Below, one piece after another: positions 31,050-64,000 of a stretch of DNA of 64,000 bases. The notes below the pieces were generated by a model. It was not told the DNA's origin and did not search any database. It was given only the letters and a program-made list of their open reading frames with translations. Origin of the DNA: Planctomycetota bacterium. GTDB lineage: Bacteria > Planctomycetota > Planctomycetia > Pirellulales > UBA1268. Made by a program: the position numbers and the translations under genes. Location: positions 1 to 64,000 of the forward strand of contig JAPOIM010000004.1 of assembly GCA_029978905.1 (NCBI GenBank). Direction: 5' to 3'. Position 1 is the stretch's first letter. Each line of letters starts with the position of its first letter.

Positions 31050-32981
31050 CTAGACCACTCCCCGCGATTCCAAAAAGGCGATCACCGCGTCGACGCATTC
31101 GCCCAAGGGCTTCTCGTGGGTTGGCACCACGAGGTCGGGTGTCGCGGGGGCTTCGTAGACCGCGGAGACGCCCGGGAAGTTGGTGATCTCGCCGGCGTCC
31201 GCCAAGGCATAGTGCCCCTGCGTGTCGCGGGCTCGGCAGACATCGATCGGCGCGGAGAGATGCACCGTGAGGAATCGCTCACTGCCGATGCGCTCGGCCA
31301 CCTTCTGCCGGACGGCTTCTTCCGGAGCCACAAACGAGGCGAGACAGATCAGACCGGCGTCGTTGAAGAGCCTTGCCACCTCAGCGCTCCTCCGAAGGTT
31401 TTCGCTGCGGTCATTTGCCGAGAAGCCCAAGTCGCGACTGATCCCCAGCCGCATGTTTTGTCCGTCGAGAACGGTCACCGCCCGCCCCATGTCAAACAGC
31501 CGTCGTTCCACGGCCTTGGCAAGGCTGGTCTTCCCCGAGCCAGCGAGGCCCGTGAAGAGCACGGTCACCGGCTTTTGGCCGAAGCGAGCCTCCCGTTCCT
31601 CTGACGAAACGCCACTCTCTTCGCGGTGCAGGTGCTCCGCCGACGCGTCGTCGTCCCAGTGGTTGGCCTCATCGCCATCGCCACGATCGAGGATCATGCC
31701 GGCGCCGACCGTGCCATTGGTCATGCGGTCGATGATGATGAATCCGCCCGTGCCACGGTTGCGGCGGTAGGCGTCGAAGGCGATCGGCTCGGCGAGGGTT
31801 ACCTGGCAGCGACCAATCTCGTTGAGCGCGAGGCTCGGGGCTGGTTCGCGATGGAGCGTGTTGACGTCGATGCGGTAGCGGAGGGAGGCGACCTGCCCGG
31901 GGGAAACCTTGGTGGTCTGTTTGAAGAGATACTGCTTGCCCGGCAGCATTGGCTCCTCGGCCATCCACACCACAGTCGCATCAAACCGCCGTTCGACCCG
32001 CGGCACGTTGCCGGGTCGCACGAGCATGTCGCCTCGGCTCGAGTCGATCTCGTCGGTGAGCGTGAGCGTGACGGAGAGCGGCGCGAAGGCTTCTTCGAGT
32101 TCACCGTCGTAGGTCACGATCGACTTCACGCGGCTCTTCTTCCGCGATGGCAGCGTCATCACCTCATCACCTTTGCGGATGATGCCGGAAGCGATTGTGC
32201 CAGAGAACCCACGGAAATCGAGGTTTGGCCGCAGCACGTGCTGCACGGGAAAACGGAAGTCTTCCATGTTGCGGTCGGAGCCGATGTAGACCGTTTCGAG
32301 CAGCGGCATCAGCGGGCTACCGGTGTACCAAGGCATGTTCGCACTTGGGGTGACGACGTTGTCGCCCTTGAGCGCCGAGATCGGCATGAAGTGCACGTCG
32401 GGCAGCTCAAGACGAGCCGCGAAGTCGACATAGTCTTGGCGGATCTTCTCGAAAACTTTTTGGTCGTAGTCGACGATGTCCATCTTGTTGACGGCCACCA
32501 CGATGTGCTTGATGCCGAGCAACGACACAATGAACGAATGCCGCTTCGTCTGCGGGAGCACGCCATGCCGGGCGTCAATCAGGATCACCGCCAGATCTGC
32601 GGTCGAGGCGCCGGTGGCCATGTTGCGGGTGTACTGCTCATGGCCGGGGGTGTCGGCGATGATGAACTTCCGCTTGTCGGTCGAGAAGTAGCGGTAGGCC
32701 ACGTCGATCGTGATCCCCTGCTGCCGTTCGTCCTCAAGGCCGTCGGTAAAGAGCGCGAGATCGACTTCTTCGCCGGTCGTGCCATACCGCGAGGAGTCCT
32801 TCTTGATCGCCGCGAGTTGATCCTCGTAGATCATCTTCGACTCGTAGAAGAGCCGGCCGATGAGTGTGCTCTTACCATCGTCGACGCTGCCGCAGGTGAT
32901 GAACCGCAGCAACTCCTTCCGCTCATGCTGAGCGAGGTATTCGTCGATGTCGGAGGCGATCAGAGCTGATTGATGTGACAT
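31050..32981 (-). CDS. cysNC: Sulfate adenylyltransferase large subunit / APS kinase fusion
   Basis: A 643-residue bifunctional protein for sulfate activation. The N-terminal part is the CysN GTPase: P-loop GSVDDGKS (31-38), [13 protein letters not shown], and the regulatory beta domains. It drives APS synthesis with CysD. The C-terminal part from about residue 458 is an adenylylsulfate kinase with P-loop GLAGSGKTS and [16 protein letters not shown]. The kinase DGDN motif reads DGQN here and the FxSPxxxxR segment reads [11 protein letters not shown], so kinase activity is likely but should be checked. It starts 76 bases after cysD. Confidence 0.93.
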
Positions 32982-33057: not shown

Positions 33058-33969
33058 TCAGAAATAGCCTTCACGCTTCTTCTTCTCCATGGAGCCCGCC
33101 TCATCGCTGTCGATCAGTCGGCCCTGCCGTTCAGAGAAGGTGGTCAGCAGCATTTCCTGAATGATCTCGGGAAGCGTCGTGGCGGTGGAGTCGACGGCTC
33201 CGCTGAGCGGATAGCAGCCGAGGGTGCGGAATCGCACCTTCCGCATTTCCGGCTTCTCGCCAGGCTTGAGCGGGAGACGATCGTCGTCGACCATGATCAT
33301 CACGCCATCCCGCCACACGATCGGCCGCTCGGCCGCAAAGTAGAGGGGAACGATGGGGATGTTCTCGAGGTGGATGTACTGCCAGACGTCGAGTTCGGTC
33401 CAGTTGGAGAGTGGAAAGACGCGGATGCTTTCCCCTTTCCGAACCTTCGTGTTGTAGAGGTTCCAAAGTTCCGGACGCTGGTTCTTCGGATCCCAGCGGT
33501 GGAACTCGTCGCGGAAGGAAAACACCCGCTCCTTGGCCCGACTCTTTTCCTCGTCGCGTCTGGCTCCGCCAAACGCTGCGTCGAAGCGGTACTTGGTGAG
33601 GGCCTGCTTGAGGCTCTCGGTCTTCATCACATTCGTGTGGACCTGGCTGCCGTGGTCGATCGGGTTGATCCCCTGCGAGCGGCCTTCCTCGTTGACGTGG
33701 ACGATCAGGTCGAGGCCAAGTTCTTTGGCGACATACTCATCACGCATCCGATACATATCCTGGAATTTCCAGGTGGTATCGACGTGCATCAAAGGGAAGG
33801 GAATTTTGGCGGGGAAGAAGGCTTTTTGGGCCAGCCGCAGCATGCAGGCCGAATCTTTCCCGATGGAGTAGAGCATCACCGGGTTTTGGAACTCGGCCGC
33901 CACTTCTCGAATGATGTGAATACTTTCGGATTCGAGCTGTTTGAGGTGGGTCAGCGAGTAGGAAGACAT
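33058..33969 (-). CDS. cysD: Sulfate adenylyltransferase small subunit
   Basis: A 303-residue ATP-pyrophosphatase-type subunit that makes adenosine 5'-phosphosulfate from sulfate and ATP together with the CysN part of the next protein. The PP-loop-like motif reads [18 protein letters not shown], and further family blocks are [17 protein letters not shown] and [20 protein letters not shown]. The start at 33969 ([20 protein letters not shown]) is the conventional CysD N-terminus; the longer frame adds 22 residues. A six-pair hairpin ACCCGG/CCGGGT lies upstream at 34035-34053 and could be a leader or terminator structure. Confidence 0.93.
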
Positions 33970-34067: not shown

Positions 34068-34095
34068 TCGACAGCCGCGGAAGTCTGGTTATGAT
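34068..34095 (+). promoter_or_regulatory. Sigma-70-type promoter of the tRNA-like gene
   Basis: A -35 box TCGACA (34068-34073, five of six to consensus) and a -10 box TATGAT (34090-34095, five of six) are separated by 16 bases. The -10 box ends 21 bases before the first base of the tRNA-like gene, the spacing expected for a short tRNA leader. It points rightward, away from cysD. Confidence 0.6.
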
Positions 34096-34116: not shown

Positions 34117-34273
34117 GGTGGTTGTAGCTCAGTTGGTTAGAGCGCTGGTTTGATGTACCCAGTGTGTACATAACCCATTCTAACTACTCTACTCATGTAA
34201 TATCCGCGTGGCCTAGTTGTAGCTCACTTGACATGCATGCCAGAGGTCGCGGGTTCGAATCCCGTCAGCCACC
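34117..34273 (+). tRNA. Interrupted tRNA-His-like gene
   Basis: The two ends fold as one tRNA. The acceptor arm is GTGGTTG (34118-34124) with CAGCCAC (34266-34272), with an extra G at 34117 opposite C at 34273, the His-specific G-1:C73 pair. The D-arm is GCTC/GAGC (34127-34130, 34140-34143), the anticodon stem CTGGT (34145-34149) with GCCAG (34239-34243), and the T-arm GCGGG-TTCGAAT-CCCGT (34249-34265). Between the anticodon-stem halves lie 89 bases instead of seven, so about 80 extra bases sit in the anticodon loop. The insert holds a hairpin ATGTAC-CCAGTGT-GTACAT and an 11-base second copy of GTTGTAGCTCA. It is either a broken gene or an unusual intron. Confidence 0.6.
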
Positions 34274-34296
34274 CTTCCGTCTGCAGGTTTCTCTCC

Positions 34297-34755: not shown

Positions 34756-35910
34756 TCAGTCGAGCCAGTCGTTGTCTGCGAGCCGTTCTGGAGCGTAGGT
34801 TTCGGTGACGTAGCTGATGTCTTTGGAAATCAGGGCTTCGACTTCGAGTTTGAAGCCGTTGGAAAGCATCTGGCTGATCTCTTTCTGCCACCCCTTTTTA
34901 TTCACAAACCAGGGGTAGGCGGCAATTTGCTTGGCCCGTTTGACGTCGGAGTCGGAGAGGGCGATCTGCACGCTGGGCGACAGGTTGCACCGTTCGTAGT
35001 CGATGCTCCGAAGGCCGAGGAACTTGGCTTCAGGAATAGCCATCCGCTTCGACTCGTAGGCGAGGTTCATCGATCCCTGCTTGAGCACCGAGTAGATGTA
35101 GTACCCCCAGGGGTCGTTATCGAGCAGGCAATACACCGGCAGTTTGAGTTCGTGGTGCAGCCGATTGAGCAGTCGCCGGACGCCGCGAGGAGGTTGCCCG
35201 CCACCGTGGGTGAGGAGGCACCCGTGTTTCCTCCAGAACTTGTCTTCGTTGAAGCGTCGCCAGACAGTGTCTTTTTCGACGTGCAGGATGAAGCTCGCGT
35301 CGCACTTCTTAAACTTGATCACATCGGCTTCGACGATCGACGGGATGCTGTAGCCGCCTGAGCCCATGCGTGCGCAGTCGATTTCGTCGCCCGAATCCTC
35401 CAGCACGATCGGGCCCACCATACCCCCGCGATTGCTCGCATAGACGTGCAGTTCTTCGCGCAAACTCTCGAGGGTGACCTCAAGGTCCTCGATCATTGGG
35501 TCGCACTCGTCTTGCGTGGCGAAGGTCTCTTCGCGTGTTCCCTCGATCGTGTGCTTGAGCAGGTAGTAAAGACCTCGGATGCTGGTGGTCTTCTGCTGTT
35601 CGATCAACTGCTTGCAGCCACTGGCCACCAGCAGCGTCTGCATGTAACTCTTCGCCTGGGAAAGATTGAATAGCTGTCGGCAGTTTTTCTGCGAGCCCAT
35701 CTCGATGATCCGCTTCGCTTTGTTGAAGCGGACGTTGGAGAGGCTGCGGGTGGGGATGTCGAGATGCGGATCACGCCGTTTGGCGGCGGCGGACACCACG
35801 CCGTCGGCCAAGCCGACGATCAGGTTTCGCGTTTTTTCGTCGACCGGGGGAAGCTTAGGCCGTGTCTGCTTGCCTGTGGTGGACTGAGAACGCTTTGATC
35901 CGGCGGGCAT
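34756..35910 (-). CDS. top6A: DNA topoisomerase VI subunit A (Spo11-like)
   Basis: A 384-residue protein of the Spo11/Top6A family, which cleaves both DNA strands through a tyrosine. The winged-helix catalytic motif is SIRGLYY with R112 and the presumed nucleophile Y116. The Toprim domain carries E212 (LHVEKDTVWRRF) and D264-x-D266 (LLDNDPWGYYIYS). The C-terminal block WQKEISQMLSNGFKLEVEAL is also family-typical. AGGAGA lies ten bases before the ATG. Active topoisomerase VI needs the ATPase subunit B, normally encoded next door, and neither neighbour encodes it. It may be elsewhere in the genome, or this protein may work alone or with another partner. Confidence 0.92.
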   Translation of the reverse strand: MPAGSKRSQSTTGKQTRPKLPPVDEKTRNLIVGLADGVVSAAAKRRDPHLDIPTRSLSNVRFNKAKRIIEMGSQKNCRQLFNLSQAKSYMQTLLVASGCKQLIEQQKTTSIRGLYYLLKHTIEGTREETFATQDECDPMIEDLEVTLESLREELHVYASNRGGMVGPIVLEDSGDEIDCARMGSGGYSIPSIVEADVIKFKKCDASFILHVEKDTVWRRFNEDKFWRKHGCLLTHGGGQPPRGVRRLLNRLHHELKLPVYCLLDNDPWGYYIYSVLKQGSMNLAYESKRMAIPEAKFLGLRSIDYERCNLSPSVQIALSDSDVKRAKQIAAYPWFVNKKGWQKEISQMLSNGFKLEVEALISKDISYVTETYAPERLADNDWLD

Positions 35911-37749: not shown

Positions 37750-37912
37750 CACGGCATTCCTAGGGCGGTGTGCTGCCTCGCGTGCAGGCAGGGTTCGTTT
37801 GGGAGGCCGTCCGGCGGCGTGCCCACGAGTATTTGTCGAGGGATAAAAGCCCTGTTCTTCGACGTGTCTTTGCAGAGAATTGTGCGGCAGGTCTTGCGAC
37901 GCCGCGTGTGGC

Positions 37913-40810
37913 ATGGGTTCTACAAGTGCCAATTCGCCGGCAGCGTCTGCTGCGGCCTCTGTCGTGCAGGTTCCTATCGACCTGCGTCGTCTTGCTGACC
38001 GGCTCGGCCTGCCCGAGGCGGATGTCGCTGCCGTCATCACGCTGCTCGATGCCGGAAATACCGTCCCATTTGTGTCGCGGTACCGCCGTGATCAGACGGG
38101 GGGGCTCGACGAACTCGCGGTGCGACGTGTTGCTCAGGAAATCTCGCGGGCTCGGCAACTGGCCGACCGAAAGCAGACCGTCCTCAGGTCGATTGAGAAC
38201 CAAGGAAAGCTCACCGCGGAGTTGACCACGGGCGTGCTCGCGGCGCAAACGGGGAAGGAACTGGAGGACATCTACCTCCCCTTCAAGCCCAAGAAACTGT
38301 CACTCGCGGAGATCGCGCGTCAGCGACGACTCGAACCGCTGGCACGGGAAATCCTGGCGGCAGCCCCAGCGGCCATCGATCTGGACCGCCGTGCAGCCGA
38401 CTTCGTGGATGCGGATGGGCAGGTGGCCACGGCTGCCGACGCCTTGCTTGGCGTGGGGCACATCATTGCCGATGAGTTTGCGGCCCGAGCGGAGGTTCGG
38501 CAGCGACTGCGGGCGATTCTCGAAAAGAGCGGTCAGCTCCGAAGCCAACGGCTGGAGGCGGAGGGGAAGCCAATCTCGAAGGACGCCAAGCATTATCGCG
38601 ACTACTTCGATTACACCGAGCATGTTCAGCGGATCCCGCCGCACCGTGGCCTTGCGATCAATCGCGGAGAGCGAGCGAAGATCCTGCGGGTGCGCGTTGA
38701 AGGCCCGGTTGAAGAGATGCAGGCCGCGGTGGAGGAAATCGTGGTGCCCGAGGGGCATCCACATGCGGATTTTCTCAAGGGCTGTGTCCGTGATGCGATT
38801 AACAGGTTGGTGCTGCCGAGCCTCGAGCGGGAGCTGCGTCGGGAAATCACCGAACAGTGCGAGCAGCATGCCGTTGAGGTGTTTGCGAGGAATCTGCGGC
38901 ACCTGATTCTCCAGCCACCTGTTGCCGGGAAGCGTGTGCTTGCCATCGATCCCGCCTTTAAGAGCGGCTGCAAGGTTGTGGTGGTGGATCCATACGGCAC
39001 GCCGCTCGAACACGATGTGCTCCACATCGTTGGTAAGTCGGAGAAACGTGAAGAGGCTGCCACGAAGCTGACGGCGCTTGTGGAAAAGCATGACGTCCAG
39101 GTGATCGCCATCGGCAATGGGGCGGCGGGCCGTGAAGCCGAGGGCTTTGTGGCCGACTTGGTCGCTGGGCCACTGGCGGATCGTGGCTTGGAGTATGTGG
39201 TCGTCAATGAGGCGGGCGCGAGCGTCTACTCCACGAGTGCGTTTGCGCGGGAGGAGTTTCCGCAGCACGATGCCTCGATTCGCAGCGCGATTTCGATTGG
39301 GCGACGTCTGCAGGATCCGCTCTCGGAACTGGTCAAGATTGAGCCGGCCAATATCGGCGTGGGGCTCTATCAGCACGACGTGCGTGCGAAGCATCTGCAC
39401 GCCTCGCTCGATGCGGTGGTCGAGAGCTGCGTCAACTACGTCGGTGTCGACGTCAACACGGCAAGCCCTGCCCTGCTGCGGTATGTCTCCGGACTCAATC
39501 AGGCGATCGCCCGCGGCATCGCCGAATGGCGGGCGGCAAAGGGGGCGTTTCAGACGCGGCAGCAGCTGCGCGAGGTGCCTGGCTTTGGCGAGGCCACCTA
39601 TGTGCAGGCCGCCGGCTTTCTGAAGATTGGTGGGGGAAGCAATCCGCTCGACGCCACCTGGATTCATCCTGAAAGCTACGCCGTGGCTGAGCGGATATTG
39701 GAACGGCTCGGGGCGAGCGTGCAGGATCTCTCAGGTCGCGAACGCACCGAGAAACTCTCGCAAGAATTGGCCAAACTCGACCTCGACGCACTCGCGAAAG
39801 AGTTCGAGGTGGGGCGGCTGCTCCTCGACGACATCGTTGAGCAACTCACCCGCCCCGGGCGGGATCCTCGCGAAGATCTGCCGCGTCCCTTTTTCAAGAA
39901 GGGTGTGCTCAAGCTCGAGGACCTCGAAGTGGGCATGGAGCTCATGGGAGCGGTGCTCAACGTCGTCGACTTTGGCGCGTTTGTCGACATCGGTCTTCAC
40001 GACAGTGGCCTCGTGCACATCAGTCAGCTGTCTCGCAAGTTTGTCAAAGACCCGCACGACTTCTTGACCGTAGGCCAGGTGGTGAAGGTCTGGGTGCTCG
40101 AACTCGACAAGAATCGTCGACGGGTGGCGTTGACCATGATTCAGCCCGGTCAGCCTCAGCAGGCAAGTGGGCGAAGCCGAGGGGATCGTCGGCGAGGCGA
40201 GGCCCAGGCGGACCGGCCGCAGGGTGATCGCCGGGAACGACGAACAGGGCCAGCCGGTCAGCGAGATGAAGGCGATCGCGGAGGCAACGCTCGCGGTGCT
40301 TCCAGGCGTGGGCCACGCGGGGGGCGTCGTGACGGCGGCGGGCCCCAGGGGGCACCACGTGGGCGGATGGGAGGTGCGGAGAGCCGAAGGCCACGTGTGC
40401 CTGCGCCTCCGATCACGGAAGCGATGCGTGAAGGGCGTGAGCCGCTCCGCACGTTTGGAGACCTCTTTCAGTTCGTCAAGCAGAACGACGAACCTGAGGC
40501 CGCGCCAGAGAAGAAGAAACGCCGGCGTCGCTCGAAGAAGAAGCCGCAACCGGATGGTGAGCAGCCAGTGGTCGGGCAGGAAGACGCAGCGATGCCTTCC
40601 CCGGCGGGAGAGGCGAGCATCTCTGGTGAGAGTGCAGCCGACAAGGAACGCCCACGCGAGAGCGTGCCTGCAGAGGCGGCGGAAGCCACATCGCAGACGC
40701 CACCTGCAGCCGCCGATGCGTCTCCGACCTCGAGCGAAATGCCCGCGTCCGTCCGCGATGATGCGGATGGTCAACAGGGCGAGCGGGCGGAAGCCTCACC
40801 TGAAGGGTGA
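37913..40810 (+). CDS. tex: Tex RNA-binding transcription accessory protein
   Basis: A 965-residue cytoplasmic protein. The start at 37913 (MGSTSANSPAASAAASVV) is the first ATG that leads into the conserved helical N-terminus (LADRLGLPEADVAAVITLLD). It is followed by the YqgF/RNase-H-like domain (KRVLAIDPAFKSGCKVVVVD), helix-hairpin-helix units (GVDVNTASPALLRYVSGLNQ) and an S1 RNA-binding domain (GAVLNVVDFGAFVDIGLHDS). After S1 there is an extra tail of about 220 residues, rich first in Arg/Gly, then Lys/Arg, then acidic and Ala-rich. Most Tex proteins end soon after S1. Confidence 0.93.
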   Translation: MGSTSANSPAASAAASVVQVPIDLRRLADRLGLPEADVAAVITLLDAGNTVPFVSRYRRDQTGGLDELAVRRVAQEISRARQLADRKQTVLRSIENQGKLTAELTTGVLAAQTGKELEDIYLPFKPKKLSLAEIARQRRLEPLAREILAAAPAAIDLDRRAADFVDADGQVATAADALLGVGHIIADEFAARAEVRQRLRAILEKSGQLRSQRLEAEGKPISKDAKHYRDYFDYTEHVQRIPPHRGLAINRGERAKILRVRVEGPVEEMQAAVEEIVVPEGHPHADFLKGCVRDAINRLVLPSLERELRREITEQCEQHAVEVFARNLRHLILQPPVAGKRVLAIDPAFKSGCKVVVVDPYGTPLEHDVLHIVGKSEKREEAATKLTALVEKHDVQVIAIGNGAAGREAEGFVADLVAGPLADRGLEYVVVNEAGASVYSTSAFAREEFPQHDASIRSAISIGRRLQDPLSELVKIEPANIGVGLYQHDVRAKHLHASLDAVVESCVNYVGVDVNTASPALLRYVSGLNQAIARGIAEWRAAKGAFQTRQQLREVPGFGEATYVQAAGFLKIGGGSNPLDATWIHPESYAVAERILERLGASVQDLSGRERTEKLSQELAKLDLDALAKEFEVGRLLLDDIVEQLTRPGRDPREDLPRPFFKKGVLKLEDLEVGMELMGAVLNVVDFGAFVDIGLHDSGLVHISQLSRKFVKDPHDFLTVGQVVKVWVLELDKNRRRVALTMIQPGQPQQASGRSRGDRRRGEAQADRPQGDRRERRTGPAGQRDEGDRGGNARGASRRGPRGGRRDGGGPQGAPRGRMGGAESRRPRVPAPPITEAMREGREPLRTFGDLFQFVKQNDEPEAAPEKKKRRRRSKKKPQPDGEQPVVGQEDAAMPSPAGEASISGESAADKERPRESVPAEAAEATSQTPPAAADASPTSSEMPASVRDDADGQQGERAEASPEG

Positions 40811-62538: not shown

Positions 62539-62701
62539 AGTCAGGAGAGAGTCGCGAGACCGCCGAAGGCCGAACGCTCAGGCAAAAGTACTGACTGATT
62601 AACGCTGTTGGAGAGTGGTGCTGGCTGATGCCGGTGCCCACCGAAGGGGCAAACCTCGGGCCGAAGCTCGCGGGCGAATCTCTCAGGTACCAGGACAACA
62701 G
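62539..62701 (+). promoter_or_regulatory. Tandem glycine riboswitch
   Basis: Two aptamers are visible. The first is closed by AGTCAG (62539-62544) with CTGACT (62591-62596) and contains GGAGAGAG, CGCCGAAGG and CGCTCAGGCAAAAG. The second is closed by CTGTTG (62605-62610) with CAACAG (62696-62701) and contains TTGGAGAG, CACCGAAGGGGCAA and AATCTCTCAGGTACCAGGAC. These are the conserved blocks of glycine aptamers. Downstream, GCCACC (62715-62720) pairs with GGTGGC (62725-62730) ahead of the GGAG ribosome site at 62743-62746, a likely expression platform. Glycine binding probably turns on gcvP. Confidence 0.92.
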
Positions 62702-62752
62702 GGTTCCCGCCGTTGCCACCGCTTGGTGGCTGCACCTGCATTGGAGCCCTGT

Positions 62753-64000
62753 ATGTCTCTCGCTGAATCTCCCTCGGTCGACGTCTCCGCCGGGGATGCC
62801 AGTTTCGCCCGGCGTCACATCGGGCTGAGTTCGGCGGATGAAGCCGCCATGCTCGCCGTGGTCGGAGCAGCGTCACGCGACGCTCTGATCGAAGAGATCG
62901 TGCCCCGTAACATCGCCCGGGGCGAAGCGATGCAACTGCCCGCGGCGCTTTCGGAGGCGGCGGCGCTTGAGGAACTTCGGGCGATTGCGTCCCGCAACAT
63001 CTTGCTCAAGAGCTTCATCGGCCAGGGCTACCACGGCACCCACACGCCAGCCGTGATCCAGCGCAACATCTTGGAAAACCCCGCCTGGTACACCGCCTAC
63101 ACCCCGTACCAGGCTGAGATCAGCCAGGGCCGTATGGAGGCACTCGTCAACTTTCAGACGATGGTCTGCGATTTGACGGGGCTGCCGATTGCCAACTCGT
63201 CGATGCTCGACGAGGCCACGGCTGCCGCCGAAGCGATGACGCTCGCTCATCGAAGCTCGAAAACCAAAGTCGACACGTTCTTGGTGGACCGCCGCTGCCA
63301 TCCGCAGACGCTCGAGGTGCTGGCCACGCGTGCGGAGCCCCTCGGCATTCAGCTGCATGTCGGCGACGTCGCCACGCTGCTTGAGCAGCATGCGTGTTTC
63401 GGTGTGCTGGTCGCATACCCCACGACCGACGGCGACGTGCCCGACTGGCGTGGGCTGGCCGAACAGGTGCACGCGAAGAAGGCGGTGCTCTGTGTGACCA
63501 CGGATCCTTTGGCCCTCACGCTGCTGGAAGCCCCAGGGCATTGGGGAGCCGACATTGCGGTCGGGTCGACGCAGCGTTTTGGTTTGCCGATGGGGTGTGG
63601 TGGTCCGCACGCCGGTTTTCTTGCCTGCCAAGATGCCTTCAAGCGTTCTCTCCCTGGGCGGCTCGTTGGCGTGAGCATCGACTCAGCCGGCAAACCGGCC
63701 TACCGCCTTGCCCTCCAAACTCGTGAACAGCACATCCGCCGCGAGAAGGCGACGTCCAATATCTGCACCGCGCAGGTGCTGCCCGCGGTCGTCGCGGCTA
63801 TGTATGCGGTCTATCACGGTCCCGAAGGTTTGCGGGCCATCGCCCATCGCGTGGCCTCGCTCGCCGCCACGCTCGCCACAGGCCTCCGCGGTATGGGGCT
63901 CACCGTCCGCAACAGCCGAGCCTTCGACACGCTCGCCCTGGAGACTGGTGAAAAAACGCTGGAACTTCTGGAAGCGGCTCGTGCGGCCGGCATGAATCTG
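62753..64000 (+). CDS. gcvP: Glycine dehydrogenase (decarboxylating), 5' part
   Basis: The P-protein of the glycine cleavage system, a PLP enzyme that decarboxylates glycine and passes the aminomethyl group to the H-protein. The ATG at 62753 has GGAG six bases before it. The 416 visible codons stay open to the window end. Family blocks are [56 protein letters not shown] and [15 protein letters not shown]. The N-terminal half shown here is the non-PLP domain; the lysine lies beyond the window. It is controlled by the upstream glycine riboswitch. Confidence 0.94.

Follow-up and report, generated by a model that had tools for sequence, protein, structure and literature searches.

Inserts in the anticodon loops of bacterial tRNA genes are known as the group I introns of tRNA-Leu(UAA), tRNA-fMet, and tRNA-Ile. 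Bacterial tRNA introns have been described as self-splicing group I introns found mostly at position 37/38 (PMC4033280), and self-splicing introns, mostly longer than 200 nt, were omitted from the training of tRNAscan-SE (PMC8450103). The window analyzed here, a 64,000-nt stretch of planctomycete DNA, contains a tRNA-His gene that likewise carries an insert in its anticodon loop. This insert is 86 nt long, while the group I core takes roughly 100 nt and most of these introns exceed 200 nt (PMC4033280, PMC8450103). It also differs from group I introns in lying after base 34 rather than at 37/38, in being unconserved, in having no Rfam match, and in that its removal does not give the correct anticodon. 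The protein-spliced tRNA introns of archaea and eukaryotes are likewise shorter than 100 nt, but the window insert has neither a usable bulge-helix-bulge nor the 37/38 position, and the splicing endonuclease is not found. Disrupted bacterial tRNA genes and pseudogenes share with this locus recognizable halves, a nonfunctional anticodon, and a lineage-specific insert; the difference is that no intact second copy is visible here, in an incomplete assembly.

Both halves of the tRNA-His gene can be read directly from the sequence at 34117-34274 on the plus strand. The 5' half (34117..34152, GGTGGTTGTAGCTCAGTTGGTTAGAGCGCTGGTTTG) comprises G-1, the acceptor 5' strand, the D arm, the 5' strand of the anticodon stem, and the loop bases TTG, and the 3' half (34239..34274, GCCAGAGGTCGCGGGTTCGAATCCCGTCAGCCACCC) comprises the 3' strand of the anticodon stem, the variable loop, the T arm, the acceptor 3' strand, and C73. 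The strands of the anticodon stem, CTGGT (34145-34149) and GCCAG (34239-34243), are 89 nt apart, as a sequence-only reading of this DNA had claimed. That reading had also described every arm as pairing perfectly; the arms do pair, but with G-U wobbles in the acceptor, T, and anticodon stems (T31-G39 in the last). Neither ARAGORN nor an Rfam scan at gathering scores found a tRNA gene in the window. The only match to the Rfam tRNA model was subthreshold (25.1 bits, 34118-34188) and ran from the 5' half into the beginning of the insert. A functional tRNA built in this way was rejected, as it would have the anticodon GAT, a bulged anticodon stem, and no T arm. A consensus scan placed a sigma-70-like promoter, TCGACA-16-TATGAT, upstream of the gene (34068..34095, plus strand), and in an alignment TCGACA...TATGA also appears at the corresponding place in the congener locus L046.

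Upstream of the gene are a CysN/CysC-type protein (31050-32981) and cysD (33058-33966), whose names were inferred from protein domains. Downstream, a gene for a topoisomerase VI subunit A/Spo11-type protein (34756-35910, minus strand; PF21180, PF04406, PF20768) adjoins the tRNA gene and is followed by Tex (37880-40810). Judged by CysD, the nearest named relatives are metagenome assemblies of planctomycetes. In congeners, and also in some of the other genera in the family, tRNA-His is likewise followed by sequence homologous to topoisomerase VI A. In a separate part of the window, Rfam identified a single glycine riboswitch aptamer (62598-62708, 57.4 bits), directly upstream of an open reading frame (62615-64000, plus strand, cut by the window end) that by eye resembles glycine dehydrogenase (gcvP).

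In three congeners (loci L046, L047, and L054), an intact tRNA-His(GTG) occupies the corresponding interval between cysD and the topoisomerase VI A gene, which is the pattern expected if the window copy is a pseudogene. The halves of these genes differ from those in the window by one or a few bases, a resemblance in a shared neighborhood that is far beyond chance and that bears out the earlier identification of the locus as a tRNA-His with an insert in its anticodon loop. The window 5' half is identical to that of L046 and L047 except for T28 instead of C28, positions 34240-34274 are identical except for A42 instead of G42, and base 39 is G in the window and A in the congeners. Between the halves, TGGTA in L046 and L047 aligns to 86 nt plus a G in the window. 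Because the intact genes are syntenic, the window locus is, on sequence and gene order, the orthologue of the congener tRNA-His in which about five bases (TGGTA) were replaced by 86. The 28-42 pair has changed on both sides, from C28-G42 to T28-A42, which speaks for a spliced product; however, T28-A42 also occurs in intact tRNA-His genes of other members of the order, such as L052, so the pair can predate the insert. ARAGORN called an intact tRNA-His at every related locus checked (29/29). In the alignment to the congeners, the intergenic DNA on either side has diverged but the outer tRNA halves have hardly decayed, which indicates that the insert is either very recent or not real.

The extra 86 nt (34153..34238, plus strand) have a G+C content of 43%, compared with 63% for the window. 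A short perfect hairpin, ATGTAC-CCAGTGT-GTACAT (34153..34171, plus strand), is predicted at the 5' end. The folding stability of the whole insert was no better than that of shuffled sequences (z = +0.82), and the precursor as a whole was predicted to fold best into a structure other than a tRNA (z = -0.94). Near the 3' end, GTTGTAGCTCACTTG (34216..34230, plus strand) copies 14 of 15 bases of the tRNA's own 34121-34135, in the D-arm region. None of 5,000 shuffles equaled this match when compared with the two tRNA halves, but when the comparison was widened to both strands of every tRNA in the genome, 7 of 300 shuffles scored as high, and many tRNA D arms share the motif. The source of GTTGTAGCTCACTTG may therefore be another tRNA. 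These comparisons suggest that the insert includes a tRNA-derived piece rather than being random sequence, and that this piece could stem from local duplication, from template switching, or from an assembly path through another tRNA gene. Derivation of the insert from other sequence within 3 kb was rejected as weak, with 12 of 200 shuffles matching as well.

The insert is unique among the genomes searched. It had no match in 397 genomes of the order, in 392 genomes of the phylum, in the rest of its own genome, or among plasmids, and exact pieces of it had no match in viral contigs; the phage records among the matches listed match ordinary tRNA parts. Insertion of a mobile element with a known relative was rejected on these results. 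A pattern for His-type 5' halves in which G34 is followed by anything but T picked out this genome alone in a set of 72 family members and, in a looser version, in a set of 397 members of the order. A gapped scan of the genome-contig collection revealed no other interrupted tRNA-His gene, and a literature search returned nothing on this case.

The tRNA census combined Rfam matches with ARAGORN over selected stretches of the genome. The genome encodes HisRS, and a working tRNA-His must therefore exist. A second intact tRNA-His, which the sequence-only reading had proposed looking for, was not found in the host assembly (G000) with Rfam and ARAGORN, a result that applies to a draft of 4.26 Mb in 234 contigs that is 94% complete and also misses other tRNAs. 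Its ARAGORN list lacks Trp(CCA), Gly(TCC), Thr(GGT), and Val(TAC), and the assembly contains 39 tRNA matches compared with 44 in a congener of similar completeness (G003). One of its contigs (C6, 8004 bases) ends just past tRNA-Tyr; at this point, a single contig of G003 (C123) carries additional tRNAs. Relatives matching the strict tRNA-His pattern have one copy, with the sole exception of G025, which has two matches, one of them at a contig end. Two partial tRNA-like sequences were also observed in G000. A 43-bit tRNA match (G000:C77:58129-58186, L042) covers model positions 7-64 only and has no ARAGORN call; by eye it is a minus-strand tRNA with a TTG anticodon loop and an unmatched acceptor stem. 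An isolated sequence resembling a tRNA 3' end (G000:C182:12471-12509, L084, GGGACGCGGGTTCGACTCCCGCCGCCTCCA), where no tRNA was called, by eye resembles the 3' end of a tmRNA gene.

We consider the window locus to be a defective version of a single-copy tRNA-His(GTG), either an artefact of assembly or strain mixture or a recent disruption accompanied by an unassembled intact copy (probability about 0.8). An ordinary planctomycete gene would have been inactivated in the assembly by the exchange of about five anticodon-loop bases for 86 others. The precursor as written would not yield a normal tRNA-His, so the insert would not act as an intron, and the cell would rely for its tRNA-His on an intact version not visible in the assembly. 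That version could lie at the same locus, in which case the assembled path would represent a misassembly or minority strain variant; alternatively, it could be a second copy in the unassembled part of the genome. Against both forms, no intact tRNA-His is seen in G000, and its relatives are single copy, so that there is no prior reason to expect a spare copy. The broken gene that the earlier reading had named as the plain alternative, or an assembly fault, fits the locus better than an intron does. In order of economy, an assembly or strain artefact comes first, then a recent disruption alongside an intact copy that was not assembled, and last a new intron.

An artefact, in which the true chromosome is intact at this place and the 86 nt are a wrong path or a rare variant, has close to an even chance of being correct. 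It would account for an essential gene that is single copy in relatives and yet appears broken, for outer halves that have barely decayed beside diverged intergenic DNA, and for the low G+C content of the insert, and it is in keeping with the fragmentation of the assembly. However, the insert has no source in the assembly, which is odd for a chimeric assembly, or in the scanned collections, and the match of GTTGTAGCTCACTTG to a tRNA exceeds chance and is poorly explained by random assembly error.

The other form of the defective-gene reading, a real disruption of very recent date, caused by a small insertion of unknown type or by a template switch, with an intact tRNA-His in the ~6% of the genome that the assembly lacks (carried, for instance, by a mobile element), is tentative and has perhaps one chance in three of being correct. 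The several tRNAs missing from the assembly leave room for such a copy, and local duplication or template switching could leave behind an insert that repeats part of the tRNA 5' half, as this one does. Against it, the relatives matching the strict pattern have no clear second copy, G025 alone having two matches as described above, and the insert has no relatives, unlike what would be expected of a known mobile element.

A genuine small spliced intron, which the sequence-only reading had implied, is very unlikely. A group I or group II intron was rejected: Rfam scans at gathering scores and by E value gave no match and recognized no conserved catalytic core. Excision also fails to restore the loop. 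All joins giving a seven-base loop were enumerated, and their anticodons are TGC, GGC, GAC, or GAT, never GTG. The earlier loop arithmetic was correct in this respect, in that keeping TTG on the 5' side gives TTGGCAT (anticodon GGC), and a GTG anticodon requires the eight-base loop TTGTGCAT. An archaeal-type intron was rejected as well. A strict scan for bulge-helix-bulge motifs found three close to the junctions, but none yields a seven-base loop when cut, and the tRNA splicing endonuclease (PF01974), found in 4 of 4 archaeal controls, was absent from the 94% complete assembly. An intervening sequence processed by proteins, or nicked by an unknown nuclease and sealed by RtcB to leave that eight-base loop, is highly improbable: the genome does encode this RNA ligase (PF01139, C194:22975-24087), both exon halves and the promoter are retained, no other tRNA-His is visible, and the insert ends ATGT and ACAT can pair, as had been claimed, but RtcB also occurs in ordinary bacteria (it was found in the E. 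coli control), and the insert is present in one assembly only and conserved in no relative. No specific evidence favors the proposed intron.

If the insert were truly spliced, it would be, to our knowledge, the first protein-dependent tRNA intron in a bacterium. The finding is of low importance unless the insert sits in the gene's only version. An essential tRNA gene that is interrupted in a single draft assembly calls for caution before a new processing system is claimed.
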